Below, piece after piece: positions 52,948 through 59,228 of a stretch of DNA of 64,000 nt. The stretch covers positions 496,001 through 560,000 of the forward strand of contig NZ_QFGA01000002.1 in assembly GCF_004369205.1 (NCBI RefSeq). Direction: 5' to 3'. A program made the position numbers and the translations under genes. The notes below the pieces were generated by a model. The model was not told the DNA's origin. It was given only the letters and a program-made list of their open reading frames with translations, and searched no databases. The stretch's first letter is position 1. Each line of letters starts with the position of its first letter. The DNA comes from Pelotomaculum schinkii. Lineage in GTDB: Bacteria; Bacillota; Desulfotomaculia; Desulfotomaculales; Pelotomaculaceae.

Positions 52948-55335
52948 ATGAAAAAACTGTTACCTGTCGGAGTCCTGGTCCTGGCCCTCACTGCGGCAAT
53001 CATATTAAACCAGCAGCGGGGCGCAAGCGCGGCGCCGGACCATAACGCCAGCTTTGTGGTTAATCAGGCGACATTCATAGCAGACGGGCAGGCCAGAGCA
53101 ATGGACGTAGTTCCCTTTGTTGAGGGCAACCGCACTTACGTCCCGGCGCGCTACCTGGCCTACGCCCTGGGTATCCCGGAGAACGGTGTCATTTGGGACG
53201 CTCTTAACCAATCAGCAACCCTCACTTCCACAGATGGGAAAACAATCATCATTACCGTTGGACGGGCGGTCCTGACCGTGGACGGCAGTGAACAGGCTAT
53301 AGATGCGCCTCCCCTCCTCAAGGAAGGGCGGATATTTCTGCCGGTCAGATGGTTGGCGCAAGCCCTGGGGTATGAGGTGGGTTGGGATGAGGCCACCTCG
53401 ACCGTTCTGGTGGGTCCGCCCGGCAGTATAGCGCATAAACCGGCTAATGAAGCCGCGCCTCTACCCTCCATAGGCTCCTACGAAAACTTAAAAGACCTGC
53501 TGGCAAATGCACAGTCACGCAGCGGAGGCTTTTACAACGAAGTTCTTGTTGATCAGGCCCTCACGTTAAGGGCGCCGCAGTCTGCCAACCAAAAAGCTGA
53601 ATCTTCGGCAACCGGGGCCGCCGCCCCGCAGTCTGACGCCGATTATTCTAAAACCAATATTCAGGTTGAGGGTGTGGACGAAGCGGATATCGTCAAAACC
53701 GACGGAGTCTACATCTACCAGGTTAACCGGGAGCGGGTAGTGGTCACCAGGGCGCAGCCCGCCGCAGATATGACGGTGGCCGGCACCCTCGACTTTACCG
53801 GCAAGGACTTTTCTCCCCTGGAGATGTATGTGGATGCAAAATACCTGGTGGTGATCGGGACCACCCACAGCCAGGTGTACGAGCCCATGTATAAGGATGA
53901 AAGACAGAAAAGAATCGGGATTATGCCCCCTTACTCCCGGAATACGGTCAAGGCTATCATTTACAACATCGAGGATAAGTCCGGTATTAAACAACTGCGC
54001 GAACTGGAGCTGAACGGCAGCTACATATCCTCGCGCAAGATCGGGTCATCCTTTTACCTGGTCACCAACCAGCACCTCTATTATTCCCCGGGGAGTGAAA
54101 TTGAAAACCCCAGGCCTTTATACCGCGACACAGCGGTAAAGGACAGCTTCATCGAAATCGACTATCCCAACATAAAATGCTTTCCTGATTTCATCCAGCC
54201 AGGTTACCTGCTCGTGGCCGGGATCAATTTGGACCAACCGGATCAGGAAGCCAGTGTCTCCAGTTACCTGGGTTCCGGCGATAATATCTACGCCTCCACC
54301 GCAAACCTCTACGTCGCGGTGACCGGATACCGGCAATTTAAAGAAGCAGACCAGGAACTGCTGCCGGCGCCCTATAGCAGCAATGTCACCAGAATTTACA
54401 GGTTTACGCTCAGTGAAGGCCGGGTGAGCTACGCGGCTAAAGGAGAGGCGCCGGGCCATATCCTGAACCAGTTTTCCATGGATGAGCACCTCGGCAATTT
54501 CAGGATCGCCACTACCCAGGGTGATATTTGGCGGACCGACCAATATACCTCCCGTAACAATGTCTTCATCATGGATGAAAACCTTAACATTACCGGCAGG
54601 CTGGAAAACATCGCGCCCGGTGAAAAGATTTATTCCGCAAGGTTTATCGGTGATCGCGGGTACCTGGTAACTTTCAAAACCGTAGACCCGTTCTTTGTGC
54701 TGGATTTAAAAGATCCGGGCAACCCCGCCATCCTCGGCGCCCTGAAGATACCGGGCTATAGTGACTACCTCCACCCGTACGACGAAAACCACGTCATCGG
54801 ATTCGGCAAGGACACGGTCGAGCTAAGCGGCGGCAACGCTTTCAGCGCAGACGAGAGCATGGCGTTCTACACAGGCATGAAAATGGCGCTTTTTGATGTG
54901 ACCGATGTCAATAACCCGGTTGAGATGTTCAGGGAAACAATCGGAGACAGGGGCACGGACTCCGAGCTCCTGCACAACCATAAAGCGCTGTTGTTTGACA
55001 AAGACAAAAACCTGCTGGCTTTCCCGGTCAGGGTGATGGTTGTGGACGATAGCCAGGCGGCGCCTGACAGCGCAATACCCCAGTACGGGACCTTCGCCTT
55101 CCAGGGGGCGTATGTTTACAACCTGGATTTGACCCACGGCTTTTCCATGAAAGGGAAGATTACCCACCTTTCTGCGGAAGACTACCTTAAAGCAGGCAAT
55201 TACTGGTATGACAGCGACAAGAACGTTGCACGCATCCTCTATATCAATGACGACCTTTACACGTTATCCAACAGTTATATCGCGGCGAACCGGCTGGATG
55301 ACCTTCAGGAGATAAAACGGCTTGAGATTAAATAA
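52948..55335 (+). CDS. secreted beta-propeller protein with copper-amine-oxidase-like N-terminal domain
   Basis: A 795-residue exported protein. Signal peptide residues 1-30. A copper amine oxidase N-terminal-like pair of repeats lies at about 35-165 (VVPFVEGNRTYVPARYLAYALG; PPLLKEGRIFLPVRWLAQALGY), a wall-associated module common in Clostridia. After a linker comes a C-terminal beta-propeller domain, announced by SKTNIQVEGVDEADIVKTDGVYIYQV, the hallmark of the Beta_propel family distantly related to WD40. Function unknown; probably a cell-surface scaffold. AGTGAGGTTC precedes the ATG. Confidence 0.88.
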   Translation: MKKLLPVGVLVLALTAAIILNQQRGASAAPDHNASFVVNQATFIADGQARAMDVVPFVEGNRTYVPARYLAYALGIPENGVIWDALNQSATLTSTDGKTIIITVGRAVLTVDGSEQAIDAPPLLKEGRIFLPVRWLAQALGYEVGWDEATSTVLVGPPGSIAHKPANEAAPLPSIGSYENLKDLLANAQSRSGGFYNEVLVDQALTLRAPQSANQKAESSATGAAAPQSDADYSKTNIQVEGVDEADIVKTDGVYIYQVNRERVVVTRAQPAADMTVAGTLDFTGKDFSPLEMYVDAKYLVVIGTTHSQVYEPMYKDERQKRIGIMPPYSRNTVKAIIYNIEDKSGIKQLRELELNGSYISSRKIGSSFYLVTNQHLYYSPGSEIENPRPLYRDTAVKDSFIEIDYPNIKCFPDFIQPGYLLVAGINLDQPDQEASVSSYLGSGDNIYASTANLYVAVTGYRQFKEADQELLPAPYSSNVTRIYRFTLSEGRVSYAAKGEAPGHILNQFSMDEHLGNFRIATTQGDIWRTDQYTSRNNVFIMDENLNITGRLENIAPGEKIYSARFIGDRGYLVTFKTVDPFFVLDLKDPGNPAILGALKIPGYSDYLHPYDENHVIGFGKDTVELSGGNAFSADESMAFYTGMKMALFDVTDVNNPVEMFRETIGDRGTDSELLHNHKALLFDKDKNLLAFPVRVMVVDDSQAAPDSAIPQYGTFAFQGAYVYNLDLTHGFSMKGKITHLSAEDYLKAGNYWYDSDKNVARILYINDDLYTLSNSYIAANRLDDLQEIKRLEIK

Positions 55336-55396: not shown

Positions 55397-56659
55397 TTAA
55401 AATTTGCCGCCTGACAAATAACTCTGGGCACCCATGCGTATCATTTTTGACAGCCTCTTGGTTTCCTGGCAAACCACCCAGAACAGACAGTTTTCCTCGG
55501 ATGCGGTAAAATGGTCACCGGTCTGCTCAAAGTTTACGGCGTAGCAACCCCCGCTGCATTTCCTTGTACACTGCTTACAGTGCCTCGGCTGCCTGGTGAT
55601 TGGATTGCGAAAAGGTTCCAGCATATTAACATCAACACCGGTATTGACATTGCCGGCTATATATTTACCTTCCGCACTGGTCAATCCCAGCAGTTTTGAA
55701 CAGGGACTTACATCCCCGTTGGGCGCCACGGCCAATGAGGTACTGCCGGCACGGCAGCCCCACCCTGTGTACTCATTCTCATCCTTTTCAAATTCCTCTA
55801 TAAATATGGGGATTCCCCTGTGTTTTAACTCATGGTAGTCCCTAAGTATATCTACGAGGTTAAGCCCGTACTGCCTGATCTGCTCTTTACTCCAGCACAT
55901 TGCGCCCTGAGCCGGAGCAATAATAAACTGGTTGACACCCAAACCCACCAACTGCTTGAAATCGTCTCTCATATCGCTTATGGCCTCGGTGCTGACAGTC
56001 ATCCTCACACCAAGCCAGGGCTGGTACATTTTTATGAGCGGTATCATTTCAGCGATTTTATGCCATGTACCCTTGCCGCTCTTCGTCCTGCGGTAGCGGT
56101 CGTGGGTTTTTTCCCCACCGTCCATGCTTAAAAGCATGTTGATTTTATTTATGGCAAAATATTTTAGGATTTCTTCGTTGATCAGCGTCCCGTTGGTGGT
56201 AACGGACCAGGTGACAGTAAGGCTGCGCTTTCCCGCAGCCGCCTGGGCATAGGGTACAATTTGTTTAATTAAATCAAACTCCAGGAGGGGCTCGCCGCCG
56301 ATTAATGTTATGTTTACCGCCGGAAATGCCGCCCGCTCCAGCAGGAGGTCAATTGCATTTTTAGCTGTAGTCAGGGTCATTCTTTCCAGGGGGTCTTTTT
56401 CATGAATAAAGCAATAGGCGCAGGTTAAGTTGCAATTAAAGGTCAAATTCAACTCAATAGCAGCCAGGCCAAGTTTTCTCTTGGCCAGTTCTTTCTCCAC
56501 AATATTGACGAGTTTTCCGGCATCCTCCGGTCCTATGAAAAATTTTGCCTGCAAAACCCCGGTTAAATCCAGGGGAGAGTAAACCGGATTTGTTCCGGTG
56601 TACTCTCCGATAAAGTCAACGATATGGTTTAACCAACCGCCCCGGCTTTTTTTACTCAT
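55397..56659 (-). CDS. radical SAM/SPASM peptide-modifying enzyme
   Basis: 420 residues. Radical SAM cluster Cys76, Cys80, Cys83 (NCNLTCAYCF), glycine-rich SAM-binding loop LIGGEPLLEFD and WSVTTNGTLIN. The C-terminal SPASM domain is rich in Cys (302, 320, 361, 364, 368, 372, 391, 397), enough for two auxiliary 4Fe-4S clusters (CRAGSTSLAVAPNGDVSPC; CKQCTRKCSGGCY). An N-terminal domain of about 65 residues could be the peptide-binding part. It resembles the Cys-rich peptide maturases (thioether-forming) of Clostridia. The gene begins two bases after the Cys-rich repeat protein, its evident substrate candidate. Confidence 0.88.
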   Translation of the reverse strand: MSKKSRGGWLNHIVDFIGEYTGTNPVYSPLDLTGVLQAKFFIGPEDAGKLVNIVEKELAKRKLGLAAIELNLTFNCNLTCAYCFIHEKDPLERMTLTTAKNAIDLLLERAAFPAVNITLIGGEPLLEFDLIKQIVPYAQAAAGKRSLTVTWSVTTNGTLINEEILKYFAINKINMLLSMDGGEKTHDRYRRTKSGKGTWHKIAEMIPLIKMYQPWLGVRMTVSTEAISDMRDDFKQLVGLGVNQFIIAPAQGAMCWSKEQIRQYGLNLVDILRDYHELKHRGIPIFIEEFEKDENEYTGWGCRAGSTSLAVAPNGDVSPCSKLLGLTSAEGKYIAGNVNTGVDVNMLEPFRNPITRQPRHCKQCTRKCSGGCYAVNFEQTGDHFTASEENCLFWVVCQETKRLSKMIRMGAQSYLSGGKF

Positions 56660-56661
56660 AA

Positions 56662-57591
56662 CTATTCCTTGTGATCTTTATTTTGCTTATGCACAGCAAA
56701 GTCAGCAGGCGGCAGGGGCGGTTCCTGAGACTTTGTTCCTGTCATTGGCGCCACACCTATAAACTGCTGGCCCGGGCAAACAAATCCGCCTGGAACGCCG
56801 CATTGCGAACCGCCGAAGACAAAGGGACTGCAGGGCTGCCCAAATACGAAAGGACTGCACGGCTGTCCGAACTGGAAGGGACCGCAGGGTAGTCCGAATT
56901 GGAAGGGACCACACGGCTGCCCGAATTGGAAGGGGCCGCAGGGCTGCCCGAACTGGAAGGGGCCACAGAAGAAGATGGGACATGCTCCGCCACCGGATGG
57001 GAAACTAGGCACATAGCTGCCCGGGCAGGCAAACGAGAAAGTACAGGTATCCGGGGGCCTGCAGATATAGCTCCTGGCGCAGGAGAAACCGGGGAAGCCG
57101 GTGCAGGCGATCTCAGCTTTAGGCGCTTCACCGGCATACGTTTGCCCGCTTCCCTGCGGCCCTGCAAAGCCGTAGAACTGTGCGCTCCCACAACCAAAGG
57201 TAATGGGGCACTGAGAACCTCCCTGGGAGGGCGCGTAGCCGCCCGGGCAGCCAAAGGCGCTTGTGCAGAAATCCGGCGGCCTGCAGATGTACGATTGCCG
57301 GCAGTTGAATTGGAAACCGGAACAGGCGATTTGAACCTGAAGTTTATCCTTTAGCTGTTGGGCTAATTGCTCCATATCCTCCCCGGTTAAAGATCGCTTC
57401 AAAGTGTCCCAGATAATTTGAACAGCGCTGACAGGGATGATCCCGACTCCCTCTTCTGTTTCCATACGTAATAAAGTTTCATCTACTGCTACAATGGTCC
57501 CGCCTATTATTCTTCCGTTAACCAGTTCAAGAACAATTTTTTTCCCTTGACTGGCTTTCAATTGTTCCAACAAGTTGAGCCACTCCTTCAA
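56662..57591 (-). CDS. Cys-rich repeat protein, candidate substrate of the adjacent radical SAM enzyme
   Basis: 309 residues in four parts. (1) Residues 1-85: an Sm-like/DUF2642-type segment (KKIVLELVNGRIIGGTIVAV) resembling small spore-coat-associated proteins. (2) Two imperfect Cys-rich repeats, 88-135 and 161-210, sharing RSYICRPPDxCT and ACPGxY, with Cys spaced C-x6-7-C-x5-C-x5-C. (3) Six tandem nine-residue units C-[GS]-P-F-[QV]-F-G-x-P at 209-262. (4) A Pro-rich tail and polar end. I do not recognise a described family for the whole. Position directly ahead of the radical SAM/SPASM gene suggests Cys thioether formation. The Sm-like start could act as leader or recruit it to the spore or cell surface. 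Confidence 0.82.
   Translation of the reverse strand: MKEWLNLLEQLKASQGKKIVLELVNGRIIGGTIVAVDETLLRMETEEGVGIIPVSAVQIIWDTLKRSLTGEDMEQLAQQLKDKLQVQIACSGFQFNCRQSYICRPPDFCTSAFGCPGGYAPSQGGSQCPITFGCGSAQFYGFAGPQGSGQTYAGEAPKAEIACTGFPGFSCARSYICRPPDTCTFSFACPGSYVPSFPSGGGACPIFFCGPFQFGQPCGPFQFGQPCGPFQFGLPCGPFQFGQPCSPFVFGQPCSPFVFGGSQCGVPGGFVCPGQQFIGVAPMTGTKSQEPPLPPADFAVHKQNKDHKE
56806..56967 (-). repeat. six tandem 27-bp units encoding Cys-Gly-Pro-Phe repeats
   Basis: Within the Cys-rich protein, the unit Cys-Gly/Ser-Pro-Phe-Gln/Val-Phe-Gly-x-Pro is repeated six times without spacers (Cys at 209, 218, 227, 236, 245, 254). The first four units are nearly identical, and the last two use Ser and Val. This points to recent unit duplication and possible length variation between strains. 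Confidence 0.9.
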
Positions 57592-57902
57592 ATAAATTCA
57601 TCCTTCTGCCAGAATATGTTTGCAGCTATGATTTGGTGTAGGATAGTCGCCATGCCGGCAGCGGCGCCACGTATCATGAAAACACCAGCGATTTAGGTGC
57701 GATTTTAATCGCACACGGCGCGCCAGCGCCAAACTCGTGTGGCTAATGTCATATTTGCGCAAATGAATTCGCACCCACATTTTTGGGATATCGCTCCATA
57801 TGCTTAACACATTTTCAGAGTTGGATGGATTACTATTGCATTGTTTTAAGTGCAAAAAAAATACACCCGGTGGGTGTGTAATCAAATACTATGGTTGCGT
57901 AA
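57592..57902. other. intergenic region containing a REP/MITE-like repeat
   Basis: About 310 bases upstream of the Cys-rich gene. The only structure is the repeat at 57693-57780. Near 57880-57915 the sequence AATCAAATACTATGG occurs twice about 20 bases apart, just after the end of the kinase-phosphatase gene. No promoter for the Cys-rich gene could be picked with confidence. Confidence 0.4.
57693..57780. repeat. REP/MITE-like repeat, copy B
   Basis: One end forms the hairpin GTGCGATTTTAATCGCAC after TTAG; the other reads AATGAATTCGCACCCACAT. The two ends are arranged as in copy A at 46210-46305, reversed. The ends are partly complementary (GGTGCGAxTT / AATTCGCACC), as expected for a small element mobilised in trans. 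Confidence 0.6.
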
Positions 57903-59228
57903 TCAAATACTATGGTAAGGCTGCTCCTCATATTTGGACCGATCCTCACCGGTCTCAACAGCTTCACTGTTAAAACCGGCCCTTTCATAGTAGGCGGCCA
58001 GCGCAGGGACCTGGACCACTGCCATTTCCGGGTAACGGAGCGCCGTAAGTTTGCCGCCCAATACGCAACCCTGGTCAATGTCTATGGTATTGTTCACAAA
58101 CACCGCCTCAGGCACGGGGGTATGCCCGTAGACAACCAGAGCATCCCCCGAGTAATCCCCGGCCCAGTCTCGCCTGACCGGAAGGCCTTCGTCCGTGACC
58201 TCCCCGGTGGTATCTCCGAAGAAACAGAAGTTTTTCACCCGTTCCGTGACCTTCCCAATCATTTCTTCTGTGATACCCCCGTGCGACACCACGAGTTTAC
58301 CATTATCAAGAACCAGGTACGGAGGAGCCTGGCGGTACAGGGAGAGGAAGTTTTCCTTCAAATGCCGCCTTTCATCCTCCGGCAGTTCTTTTATTTCAGC
58401 TACTGTTTTTTCCAGGCCGTGGGCAACCTTGATGTTTCTTCCTTCCAGAAAGCGAGCAAGTTTCCGGCAGTGATTGCCCGGCACATAGAGGGCGCTGCCG
58501 GCGTCGACCATGGCCTTCACCAGCCAGAAGCATTTCAGGCTGTGCGGCCCTCGGTCGGTCAGGTCACCCAGAAACACAATCCTGCGGCCTGCCGGGTGAA
58601 AAAAACGGCCGAAACGCCTGAGATAACCCAGTTTACCCAGGAGCATAATCAGTTCATCATAGCAGCCGTGCAGATCTCCAATCAAGTCAAAAGGCCCCGG
58701 ATAAGTTACCTCAAAGCTTCGTATATCCACCTTGAAATCAGGGTCCTGCAGGTCCTCCCAGGAAAGCGTTAAGACCTGGTTAAAGCCTTCTTCCTCCGCT
58801 GTTTGCAGAGTTCTGCCAAGCTGCCTGCTCATAGCTCCGATCACCTTGCGGGGCACTTGCCGCTGCCGGCCCGCATTGCATTCCAGACAGACCGGCTCAG
58901 GAGTATTGAATATCAGGAGCGCCACGTGGAATTTGTATTTTCTGCCTATGGCCAGGAGTTCACTGCGGGCCCGCCGGGTCAAGGCGGTGGAGTCAGCGAC
59001 CGTTAAGCGCCCGAGAGCCAGGCGGTATTCAATGAGAGAGCGGAAGAGTTTGAACGCCTCTTTAGAGGCGGAGATATTTGTCTCATCATCGCTGACGAGA
59101 AGTCGACAGCGGTCGGAGGATACTACAGCCGTCTCCTCAAAGTGGCTCAAGGCAAAAGTAGATTTACCGCAACCCGGCGGCCCGCTTAAAACCAGGAGGG
59201 TGTTGTTTGGTATAGATATGGACGGCAT
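57903..59228 (-). CDS. polynucleotide kinase-phosphatase (Pnkp-like, without ligase domain)
   Basis: 441 residues. Kinase domain (about 1-165): P-loop GPPGCGKST, VVSSDRCRLLVSDDE and VADSTALTRRAR, as in the 5'-OH polynucleotide kinase half of bacterial Pnkp. Phosphatase domain (about 175-410): metallophosphoesterase motifs GDLHGCYDE, GDLTDRGPHS, GNHCRK and VVSHGG. Full-length Pnkp adds a C-terminal ligase of about 400 residues, absent here. It would heal RNA ends by adding 5' phosphate and removing 2',3'-cyclic phosphate, leaving sealing to another enzyme. The only RNA ligase gene in the window (rtcB) is broken, and RtcB uses unhealed ends anyway. Confidence 0.82.
   Translation of the reverse strand: MPSISIPNNTLLVLSGPPGCGKSTFALSHFEETAVVSSDRCRLLVSDDETNISASKEAFKLFRSLIEYRLALGRLTVADSTALTRRARSELLAIGRKYKFHVALLIFNTPEPVCLECNAGRQRQVPRKVIGAMSRQLGRTLQTAEEEGFNQVLTLSWEDLQDPDFKVDIRSFEVTYPGPFDLIGDLHGCYDELIMLLGKLGYLRRFGRFFHPAGRRIVFLGDLTDRGPHSLKCFWLVKAMVDAGSALYVPGNHCRKLARFLEGRNIKVAHGLEKTVAEIKELPEDERRHLKENFLSLYRQAPPYLVLDNGKLVVSHGGITEEMIGKVTERVKNFCFFGDTTGEVTDEGLPVRRDWAGDYSGDALVVYGHTPVPEAVFVNNTIDIDQGCVLGGKLTALRYPEMAVVQVPALAAYYERAGFNSEAVETGEDRSKYEEQPYHSI

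Follow-up and report, generated by a model that had tools for sequence, protein, structure and literature searches.

Radical S-adenosylmethionine (SAM) peptide chemistry is known mostly from small peptides. Among the systems closest to the one described here, PapB is reported to link Cys residues to an Asp four positions downstream (+4) and to tolerate spacings of 0-6 (PMC9413430). For the spore coat of Bacillus subtilis, the CotB-CotH pair has been described, in which a protein with a self-interacting N-terminal part carries a repeat tail that is multiply modified by a kinase encoded nearby (PMC7821199). Here, we analyse a stretch of 64,000 nucleotides (nt) from Pelotomaculum schinkii (contig NZ_QFGA01000002.1, positions 496,001 to 560,000), called the window in the following, in which a gene for a radical SAM/SPASM enzyme lies beside a gene for a Cys-rich repeat protein with an Sm-like N-terminus (Sm-Cys protein). 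An earlier note on this DNA had interpreted the two as an enzyme paired with its Cys-rich substrate and possibly linked to sporulation, and this interpretation is supported by the comparisons reported below, whereby the thioether nature of the bonds and the acceptor residues are predicted from sequence. Genomes, contigs and loci used for comparison carry our labels G, C and L, respectively.

The two genes form a conserved and co-inherited pair

Both genes are encoded on the minus strand of the window, the Sm-Cys gene (56662..57573) being followed after a gap of two bases by the enzyme gene (55397..56659; 420 residues), and both reading frames were confirmed at the places given for them earlier. 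For the Sm-Cys protein, a start at 57591 and a length of 309 residues had been proposed. In all 23 homologous regions compared, a ribosome-binding site of the AAGGAGTG type is followed by a start codon located 14 codons ahead of the Sm core motif, and because such an element (GAAGGAG; 57583..57589, minus strand) precedes TTG 57573, we place the start at this codon and not at TTG 57591, a shift of 18 nt that leaves a protein of 303 residues.

Among 113 genomes of the order, the Sm-Cys protein was found in 19, and an enzyme match at an expectation value (E) of ≤1e-60 was found in the same 19. A twentieth enzyme match at E ≤1e-40 was only 33% identical. Repeat-protein homologues that regularly occur without the enzyme, which the earlier note had named as evidence against the pairing, were not seen, and neither the Sm-Cys protein nor a close enzyme was found alone in any of the 113 genomes. 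A profile of the Sm domain matched strongly only in the 19 carriers, and three other genomes gave weak matches with E values of 2e-5 to 2e-4. The Sm-Cys gene is located directly upstream of the enzyme gene in 19/19 order carriers, with the caveats that both frames are broken in the draft genome G052 and that the enzyme gene of G094 runs off the contig end.

In a sample of 398 genomes of the phylum, three more carriers (G218, G478 and G161) were encountered, each with the partner upstream, and a scan of named genomes, from which the best 80 of 327 enzyme relatives were kept, added Sporomusa malonica with the same arrangement, presumably a member of another class than the window organism. Order and adjacency are therefore kept in 23/23 genomes with the enzyme, which represent four numbered families plus Sporomusa, inside and outside the class of the window and in at least three differing gene surroundings; carriers of the order itself are confined to two families. 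Besides Sporomusa malonica, the named carriers are Pelotomaculum and relatives, Desulforamulus aeronauticus and Desulforamulus aquiferis. Five species of genus g38 have both genes and four have neither, and in genus g9 two have both and four have neither; gains or losses therefore struck both genes together. Extra Sm-Cys copies, mostly on other contigs, occur in 9/19 order genomes, with up to four copies per genome, and every order carrier has one close enzyme (E ≤1e-40), the second match in G052 being the other part of the broken gene. Taken together, the co-inherited pairing of Sm-Cys protein and enzyme is well supported.

A predicted Sm fold is followed by a tail of Cys-aromatic repeats

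The Sm-Cys protein of the window contains 21 Cys and consists of an Sm-like domain, two Cys-rich modules, six nine-residue Cys/Phe units and a short charged tail. For the N-terminal 94 residues, AlphaFold predicted a helix, five strands and a helix, with a predicted local distance difference test score (pLDDT) of ~90 in the core and a mean of 76.5, and nearly all of the best Foldseek matches were Hfq structures (E 2e-4; template-modelling score by target up to 0.85). Across NCBIfam and Pfam, no family matched the Sm-Cys protein above its cut-off. The Sm-like N-terminus claimed in the earlier note scored only 19.3 bits with Pfam LSM (cut-off 23.4), yet the predicted fold matches Hfq/Sm structures, and Pfam LSM was detected at E ≤0.1 in 22/26 homologues. 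We therefore assign to this part (57322..57573, minus strand, including the following helix) a predicted Sm/LSM fold, that is, a helix plus a five-stranded small barrel. Since Sm proteins usually form rings, this part may serve to assemble the Sm-Cys protein and to keep its tails in place; it is a likely carrier or oligomerisation domain.

The two long Cys-rich repeats described earlier were recovered as module 1 (IACSGFQFNCRQSYICRPPDFCTSAFGCPGG...; 57181..57330), which starts at residue 88 and has Cys mostly at each sixth residue, and module 2 (IACTGFPGFSCARSYICRPPDTCTFSFACPGS...; 56968..57111), which starts at residue 161. From residue 209 onwards, six units of the type C-G/S-P-F-Q/V-F-G-x-P follow (56806..56967; all on the minus strand), in agreement with the number given before, but the sixth unit ends in GGS and not in GxP.

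The position of aromatic residues relative to Cys was studied in 32 related proteins with 571 Cys (L063, both frames of L066, L078, L069, L073, L077, L079 and L056 were left out). Phe, Tyr or Trp was present at +3, +4 or +5 after 486/571 Cys, compared to 41.5% in shuffled sequences (maximum 47.6% in 200 shuffles), and at +1/+2 and at +6 to +8 aromatics were below the shuffled level. In G218 and G478, an aromatic residue stands at +4 after 69/74 Cys. Number and sequence of the repeat units vary among homologues; the protein of Sporomusa malonica has only eight Cys, and others have up to 27. Units such as CGPFQFGQP are found in Pelotomaculum, CxCQYQQP or CTFNFQQP in others, CFERFGQP and CYQAYAQP in G218/G478, and CRERFGPPPP and CPQYQYGPP in G161. 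Conserved across these divergent tails are the Cys and the aromatic residue that comes after it. A paralogue with a different tail (L076:2004-2630, minus strand) is rich in His, Tyr and Asn and has a Cys at about each sixth residue, unlike other homologues.

The enzymes with an Sm-Cys partner form a group of their own

The radical SAM motif CxxxCxxC was confirmed as CNLTCAYC at residues 76-83, and the enzyme belongs to the radical SAM/SPASM superfamily according to Pfam PF04055 (51.8 bits, cut-off 29.5) and PF13186 (26.1 bits, cut-off 21.5). All eight SPASM Cys noted before are present in the C-terminal part of the window enzyme; in a comparison of 16 homologues, however, only seven of them (residues 302, 320, 361, 364, 368, 372 and 391) were invariant, whereas the eighth (VVCQET) is replaced by Gly in 3/16.

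When the best 25 of 82 matching NCBIfam families were compared, PapB (NF047865) was the best match with 209.6 bits, which is below its cut-off of 340, and three further enzymes of the group scored 207-228. Scores also remained below the cut-offs for QhpD (TIGR03906; 169.3/453), the SCIFF maturase (TIGR03974; 156.8/425), CcpM (TIGR04068; 147.9/500), CXXX (TIGR04115; 126/350) and CefB (NF038107; 94.5/600), and membership in any of the maturase families compared is therefore ruled out. Models of QhpD and of anaerobic sulfatase maturases were among these best 25 matches. Both act on proteins, and the statement in the earlier note that known systems act on short precursors was too strong. By sequence, the closest solved structure was PDB 5wgg (E 4e-32), which we take to be the thioether-forming SPASM maturase CteB. 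No Pfam match to a PqqD-like recognition domain was obtained at E ≤1, and the model of the enzyme, with a helical, three-helix N-terminus and a mean pLDDT of 59, is too weak to judge such a domain.

The window enzyme is 93% identical to that of one Pelotomaculum genome. In a tree of 37 enzymes, those having an Sm-Cys partner formed one group with a support of 100/100. This group comprises 19 rows, one per genome, a set that differs from the 19 order carriers; the tree used 18 of the distant relatives, and truncated, frame-broken and several close enzyme copies were left out.

Sm-Cys genes are preceded by a sigma-K-type promoter signature

For sigma K, a -35 element AC and a -10 element CATA-N3-T have been described (PMC3789822, PMC517825). 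A sporulation promoter, for which the earlier note had suggested looking upstream of the Sm-Cys gene, was found there in the form of a sigma-K-type site, ACCAAATCATAGCTGCAAACATATTCTG (57610..57637, minus strand), with -35 AC, a spacer of 17 nt and -10 CATATTCTG, 36 nt ahead of TTG 57573. The motif AC-N17-CATA-N3-T(A/G) was present upstream of 25/29 Sm-Cys genes and in 4/252 control genes, i.e. other genes of the same stretches, and shuffling gave a mean of 0.35 and a maximum of 3 regions. With other spacers (12 to 21), the motif occurred in 0-4 regions. For this count, L069, L073, L077, L079 and the second frame of L066 (broken or cut by contig ends) as well as the near-duplicate L056 were left out.

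The distance from the end of the -10 element to the start codon is 32-43 nt in 22/23 placeable regions and 89 nt in the 23rd. Compared over 78 nt, sixteen of the promoter sites reach a similarity of no more than 60%, and for the 25 nt upstream of their -35 it is 28%. Four regions lack the motif: two are one-base variants, one belongs to a second gene just behind the enzyme, and one has TC for AC. The strict motif was also detected at 6/9 unlinked paralogues tested. Upstream regions of Sm-Cys genes thus carry the sigma-K promoter signature, -35 AC and -10 CATA-N3-T, at a near-fixed spacing (25/29). In Clostridioides difficile, the -35 of sigma K is reported to be AC in contrast to ATA for sigma E, with -10 elements alike (CATATAAT at sigK P2), and on the basis of this distinction a sigma E promoter was set aside (PMC3789822). 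A yabG-like gene is reported to be under sigma-K control in the same species (PMC3789822), and in our genomes AC-N17/18-CATA-N3-T was found at 18/20 yabG loci. Of six fresh genes from other lineages (G218/G478/G161), three had AC-N16-CATATAAT and two had N17. The promoter sequences therefore suggest that Sm-Cys genes are likely under sigma-K control. Full-length sigma K was found above cut-off in 11/19 carriers, the window genome included.

Neighbouring genes

The surroundings of the pair were compared at 23 loci, some of them on short contigs. In the window, a gene for a large beta-propeller protein with a copper amine oxidase N-terminal-type domain (52948-55335, plus strand) is convergent with the enzyme gene, and on the other side an AAA_33 kinase fused to a calcineurin-type phosphoesterase is encoded (57903-59228, minus strand), a product that presumably resembles bacterial polynucleotide kinase-phosphatase enzymes. 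Two recurring neighbours favour a link to sporulation. The sporulation gene yqfD is located 1.4-1.5 kilobases (kb) from the enzyme gene, across the Sm-Cys gene, in three loci; in a fourth it is 3.1 kb away with two genes between, one of which codes for an Amidase_6 protein. In all five carriers of family f9 (5/23 loci), a gene for a second sigma factor of the SigK subfamily follows the enzyme gene on the same strand at a distance of 1.9-2.2 kb (L061:10873-11595, plus strand; G051 C16:106218-106883; G059 C49:17355-18020; also L062 and L066), and the copy at L061 (G058) scored 268 bits with PRK05803 (cut-off 252).

A possible role in the spore envelope

Building on the pairing, the co-inheritance, the predicted Sm fold, the Cys-aromatic periodicity and the promoter signature, all established by computation, our favoured explanation is as follows. 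Both genes would form one transcription unit, which sigma K would activate at a late stage in the mother cell. The product of the first gene would be a structural component of the spore envelope, either in the coat or in the exosporium; its Sm-fold domain probably allows self-assembly and recognition of copies and is followed by the long Cys-aromatic repeat tail. Still inside the reducing mother cell, this protein would be acted on by the dedicated radical SAM/SPASM maturase, which would link Cys of the repeats through thioether bridges within the molecule to an acceptor some four residues downstream, in most cases Phe/Tyr and sometimes Asp. The same enzyme would also serve unlinked paralogues in the genome, and the stiffened Sm-Cys proteins would be deposited on the spore. 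There would be no need for a protease or an exporter, since what the mother cell makes is assembled on the forespore or set free by lysis. The Cys-aromatic spacing of the tails fits a PapB-like enzyme, since PapB is reported to join Cys to +4 and to tolerate 0-6 (PMC9413430). To the view that Sm-Cys proteins belong to the spore envelope, are made late in the mother cell and are cross-linked by a radical SAM maturase dedicated to them, we give a probability of roughly 0.58. A more specific version is held only tentatively, at somewhat short of an even chance: that one mother-cell enzyme turns Cys-aromatic tails into strings of thioether, possibly Cys-to-Phe/Tyr, rings, with the Sm scaffold replacing a leader peptide, which would be the first structural, polymer-like product of a radical SAM enzyme of the peptide-maturase type and the first such chemistry in a spore coat.

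Several observations speak against the favoured explanation. For PapB, a need for a carboxylate acceptor has been suggested (PMC9413430). The corresponding CX3D/E motif is not followed in the window protein, where Asp occurs at +4 for only 2/21 Cys and +4 is mostly aromatic or Gln, and the aromatic acceptor that we infer for Cys would be without precedent in PapB. A modest excess of aromatics was also seen ahead of Cys, at -3 to -5 (49.7% versus 41.5% shuffled). A short Sm paralogue (L078:5333-5692, plus strand), with a near-match to the promoter and without a linked enzyme, has only two Cys, and the Sm domain can therefore exist without a Cys tail. The promoter motif was derived from the same 29 regions in which it was then counted, and these regions are related; of the six fresh genes, three have N16 in place of N17, at the usual distance, one of the two with N17 has its site unusually far away, 254 nt before the anchor, and the sixth has no site. 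The count at yabG allowed several spacers and had no matched control, and of the two misses one is the window genome's own yabG, which has the -10 without AC, the other a gene with a start that is not placeable. Sigma K was found in two pieces in six carriers, with the pieces 4-6 kb apart on one contig (G095 C1:1160156-1165067; G101 C43; G051 C36; G059 C61) or on separate contigs (G100 and G105), as a first piece only in G099, and not at all in G098; the split sigK looks like the result of a skin-type insertion that the mother cell would excise. The presence of sporulation genes does not discriminate carriers, because sporulation is almost universal in the order (SpoIVA in 104/113 genomes), and was rejected as evidence.

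The remaining point concerns export. That no protease or export gene adjoins the pair, as the earlier note had stated, is true in the window, but a NodI/NodJ-like ABC-2 exporter is encoded behind the enzyme on the same strand at 4/23 loci (G099, G100, G101 and G091; exporter genes at L052, L056, L057 and L058 behind the enzyme gene, and at L082:6101-8042). Its distance from the enzyme is 34-46 nt in three loci and 534 nt in one, with scores below the Nod cut-offs, and a permease remnant of 58 residues is present at a fifth locus (L060). At 18/23 loci, some of them on short contigs, the exporter was not found, and it is confined to genera g4 and g8, where it may indicate an exported product or be an unrelated gene of the same operon. 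Six g4/g8 loci, among them the four with the exporter, have a gene for a protein of metallo-beta-lactamase fold opposite the Sm-Cys gene.

The best surviving alternative, although rather unlikely, is that Sm-Cys proteins are coat proteins held by disulfides and aromatic packing, and that the enzyme introduces some other or lesser modification, for instance at one residue or with no bridge. Spore coats and appendages are known to contain Cys-rich proteins linked by disulfides, and tail motifs that drift freely by lineage would be expected if only the content of Cys and aromatics mattered. Against this alternative stand the one dedicated enzyme per genome, without which the tail family was never encountered in 113 genomes, and the Cys-to-aromatic spacing of 3-5; moreover, the nearest solved structure is that of a thioether-forming enzyme. 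PapB, too, forms Cys thioethers (PMC9413430).

We consider it quite improbable that the system makes a ribosomal peptide product, an antibiotic or a signal, with the Sm domain as leader and the tail, whole or cut, as a cross-linked peptide released either by export or upon lysis of the mother cell. The relationship of the enzyme to ranthipeptide maturases, the nine-residue repeats, which could be cut into units, and the exporter with its remnant at the fifth locus would all suit such a product, and in the other lineages lysis would suffice for release without an exporter. Against it stand the absence of the exporter from the window, its restriction to g4/g8, and the up to four Sm-Cys copies per genome, located on separate contigs.

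Very improbable is a tail that binds metal or iron-sulfur clusters, or stores thiols in anaerobic spores, with an enzyme that tunes the site: the numerous Cys, up to 27 per protein, and the anaerobic hosts would agree with it, but the commonest Cys-to-Cys spacings (6, 8, 9 and 7, with Pro/Phe interposed) are unlike CxxC metal sites, and aromatics at fixed spacing are not called for by metal binding. Chance neighbourhood or a hitch-hiking operon without an enzyme-substrate relation, for which only the commonness of two-gene operons and the restriction of order carriers to two families could be adduced, is scarcely credible and was rejected in view of the conserved adjacency in 23/23 genomes of four numbered families and Sporomusa, in at least three surroundings, and of the strict promoter motif at 6/9 unlinked paralogues.

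If the spore-envelope explanation is correct, radical SAM peptide chemistry would also harden a structural protein, and it would provide a covalent route to spore toughness in anaerobes, where oxygen-dependent cross-linking is unavailable. A fixed carrier domain combined with a freely evolving Cys-aromatic tail would explain how one enzyme treats the repeats of many lineages, and a tolerant bridge-forming enzyme with many natural substrates would be at hand for comparison.

Comparison with known systems

In a literature search, to which subscription papers were mostly inaccessible, no description of an Sm-Cys/radical SAM system came up. QhpD, a maturase that cross-links a protein, sets a precedent for the action of radical SAM/SPASM enzymes on proteins, and its substrate is unrelated to Sm-Cys. 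Also close are the SCIFF maturase (TIGR03974) and 5wgg, the solved structure nearest by sequence, but the window enzyme scores 156.8 bits where 425 are required, and SCIFF is a short six-Cys peptide. CefB (Cys-every-fifth) and the CXXX-repeat target system have, judging by the family names, repetitive Cys substrates, again with scores below cut-off, and we know of no Sm domain or sporulation link in either. The PapB/PapA ranthipeptide system provides the best curated enzyme match and the Cys to +4 spacing, and several bridges per substrate as well as a tolerated motif context, as reported for it, would also fit here (PMC9413430). It differs in that the present substrate is a 303-residue Sm-fold repeat protein and not a short precursor, that mostly aromatic residues or Gln and not Asp/Glu occupy the acceptor positions, and that a sporulation promoter precedes the pair.

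The CotB-CotH pair shares the layout of the Sm-Cys/enzyme pair, a likeness that does not imply kinship, since CotH is a kinase and the repeats of CotB are reported to be Ser-rich (PMC7821199). DUF2642 was detected in 2/26 Sm-Cys members with a best E of 0.0089, and homology to the N-terminal domain of CotB is not established. Cousins of Armatimonadota/planctomycete type (L095-L099) have PapB-like enzymes that are 33-36% identical, with Cys-rich proteins encoded within 4 kb (L095:5410-5985, L096:8710-9234, L099:8577-9083 and L098:1809-2789). They differ by having no visible Sm domain, and in the tree, which included four of their enzymes, none of these four grouped with the Sm-Cys enzymes. Three of these putative substrates have a stretch SRREFL/CRREFL that resembles a twin-arginine translocation signal and C-x4/5-C tails, and one cousin has 31 Cys in 326 residues; possibly, they represent another family without a name. 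As far as can be judged from sequence, the superfamily of the enzyme and probably the type of bond are familiar from described systems, and the substrate class, the carrier fold and the biological setting are probably new.

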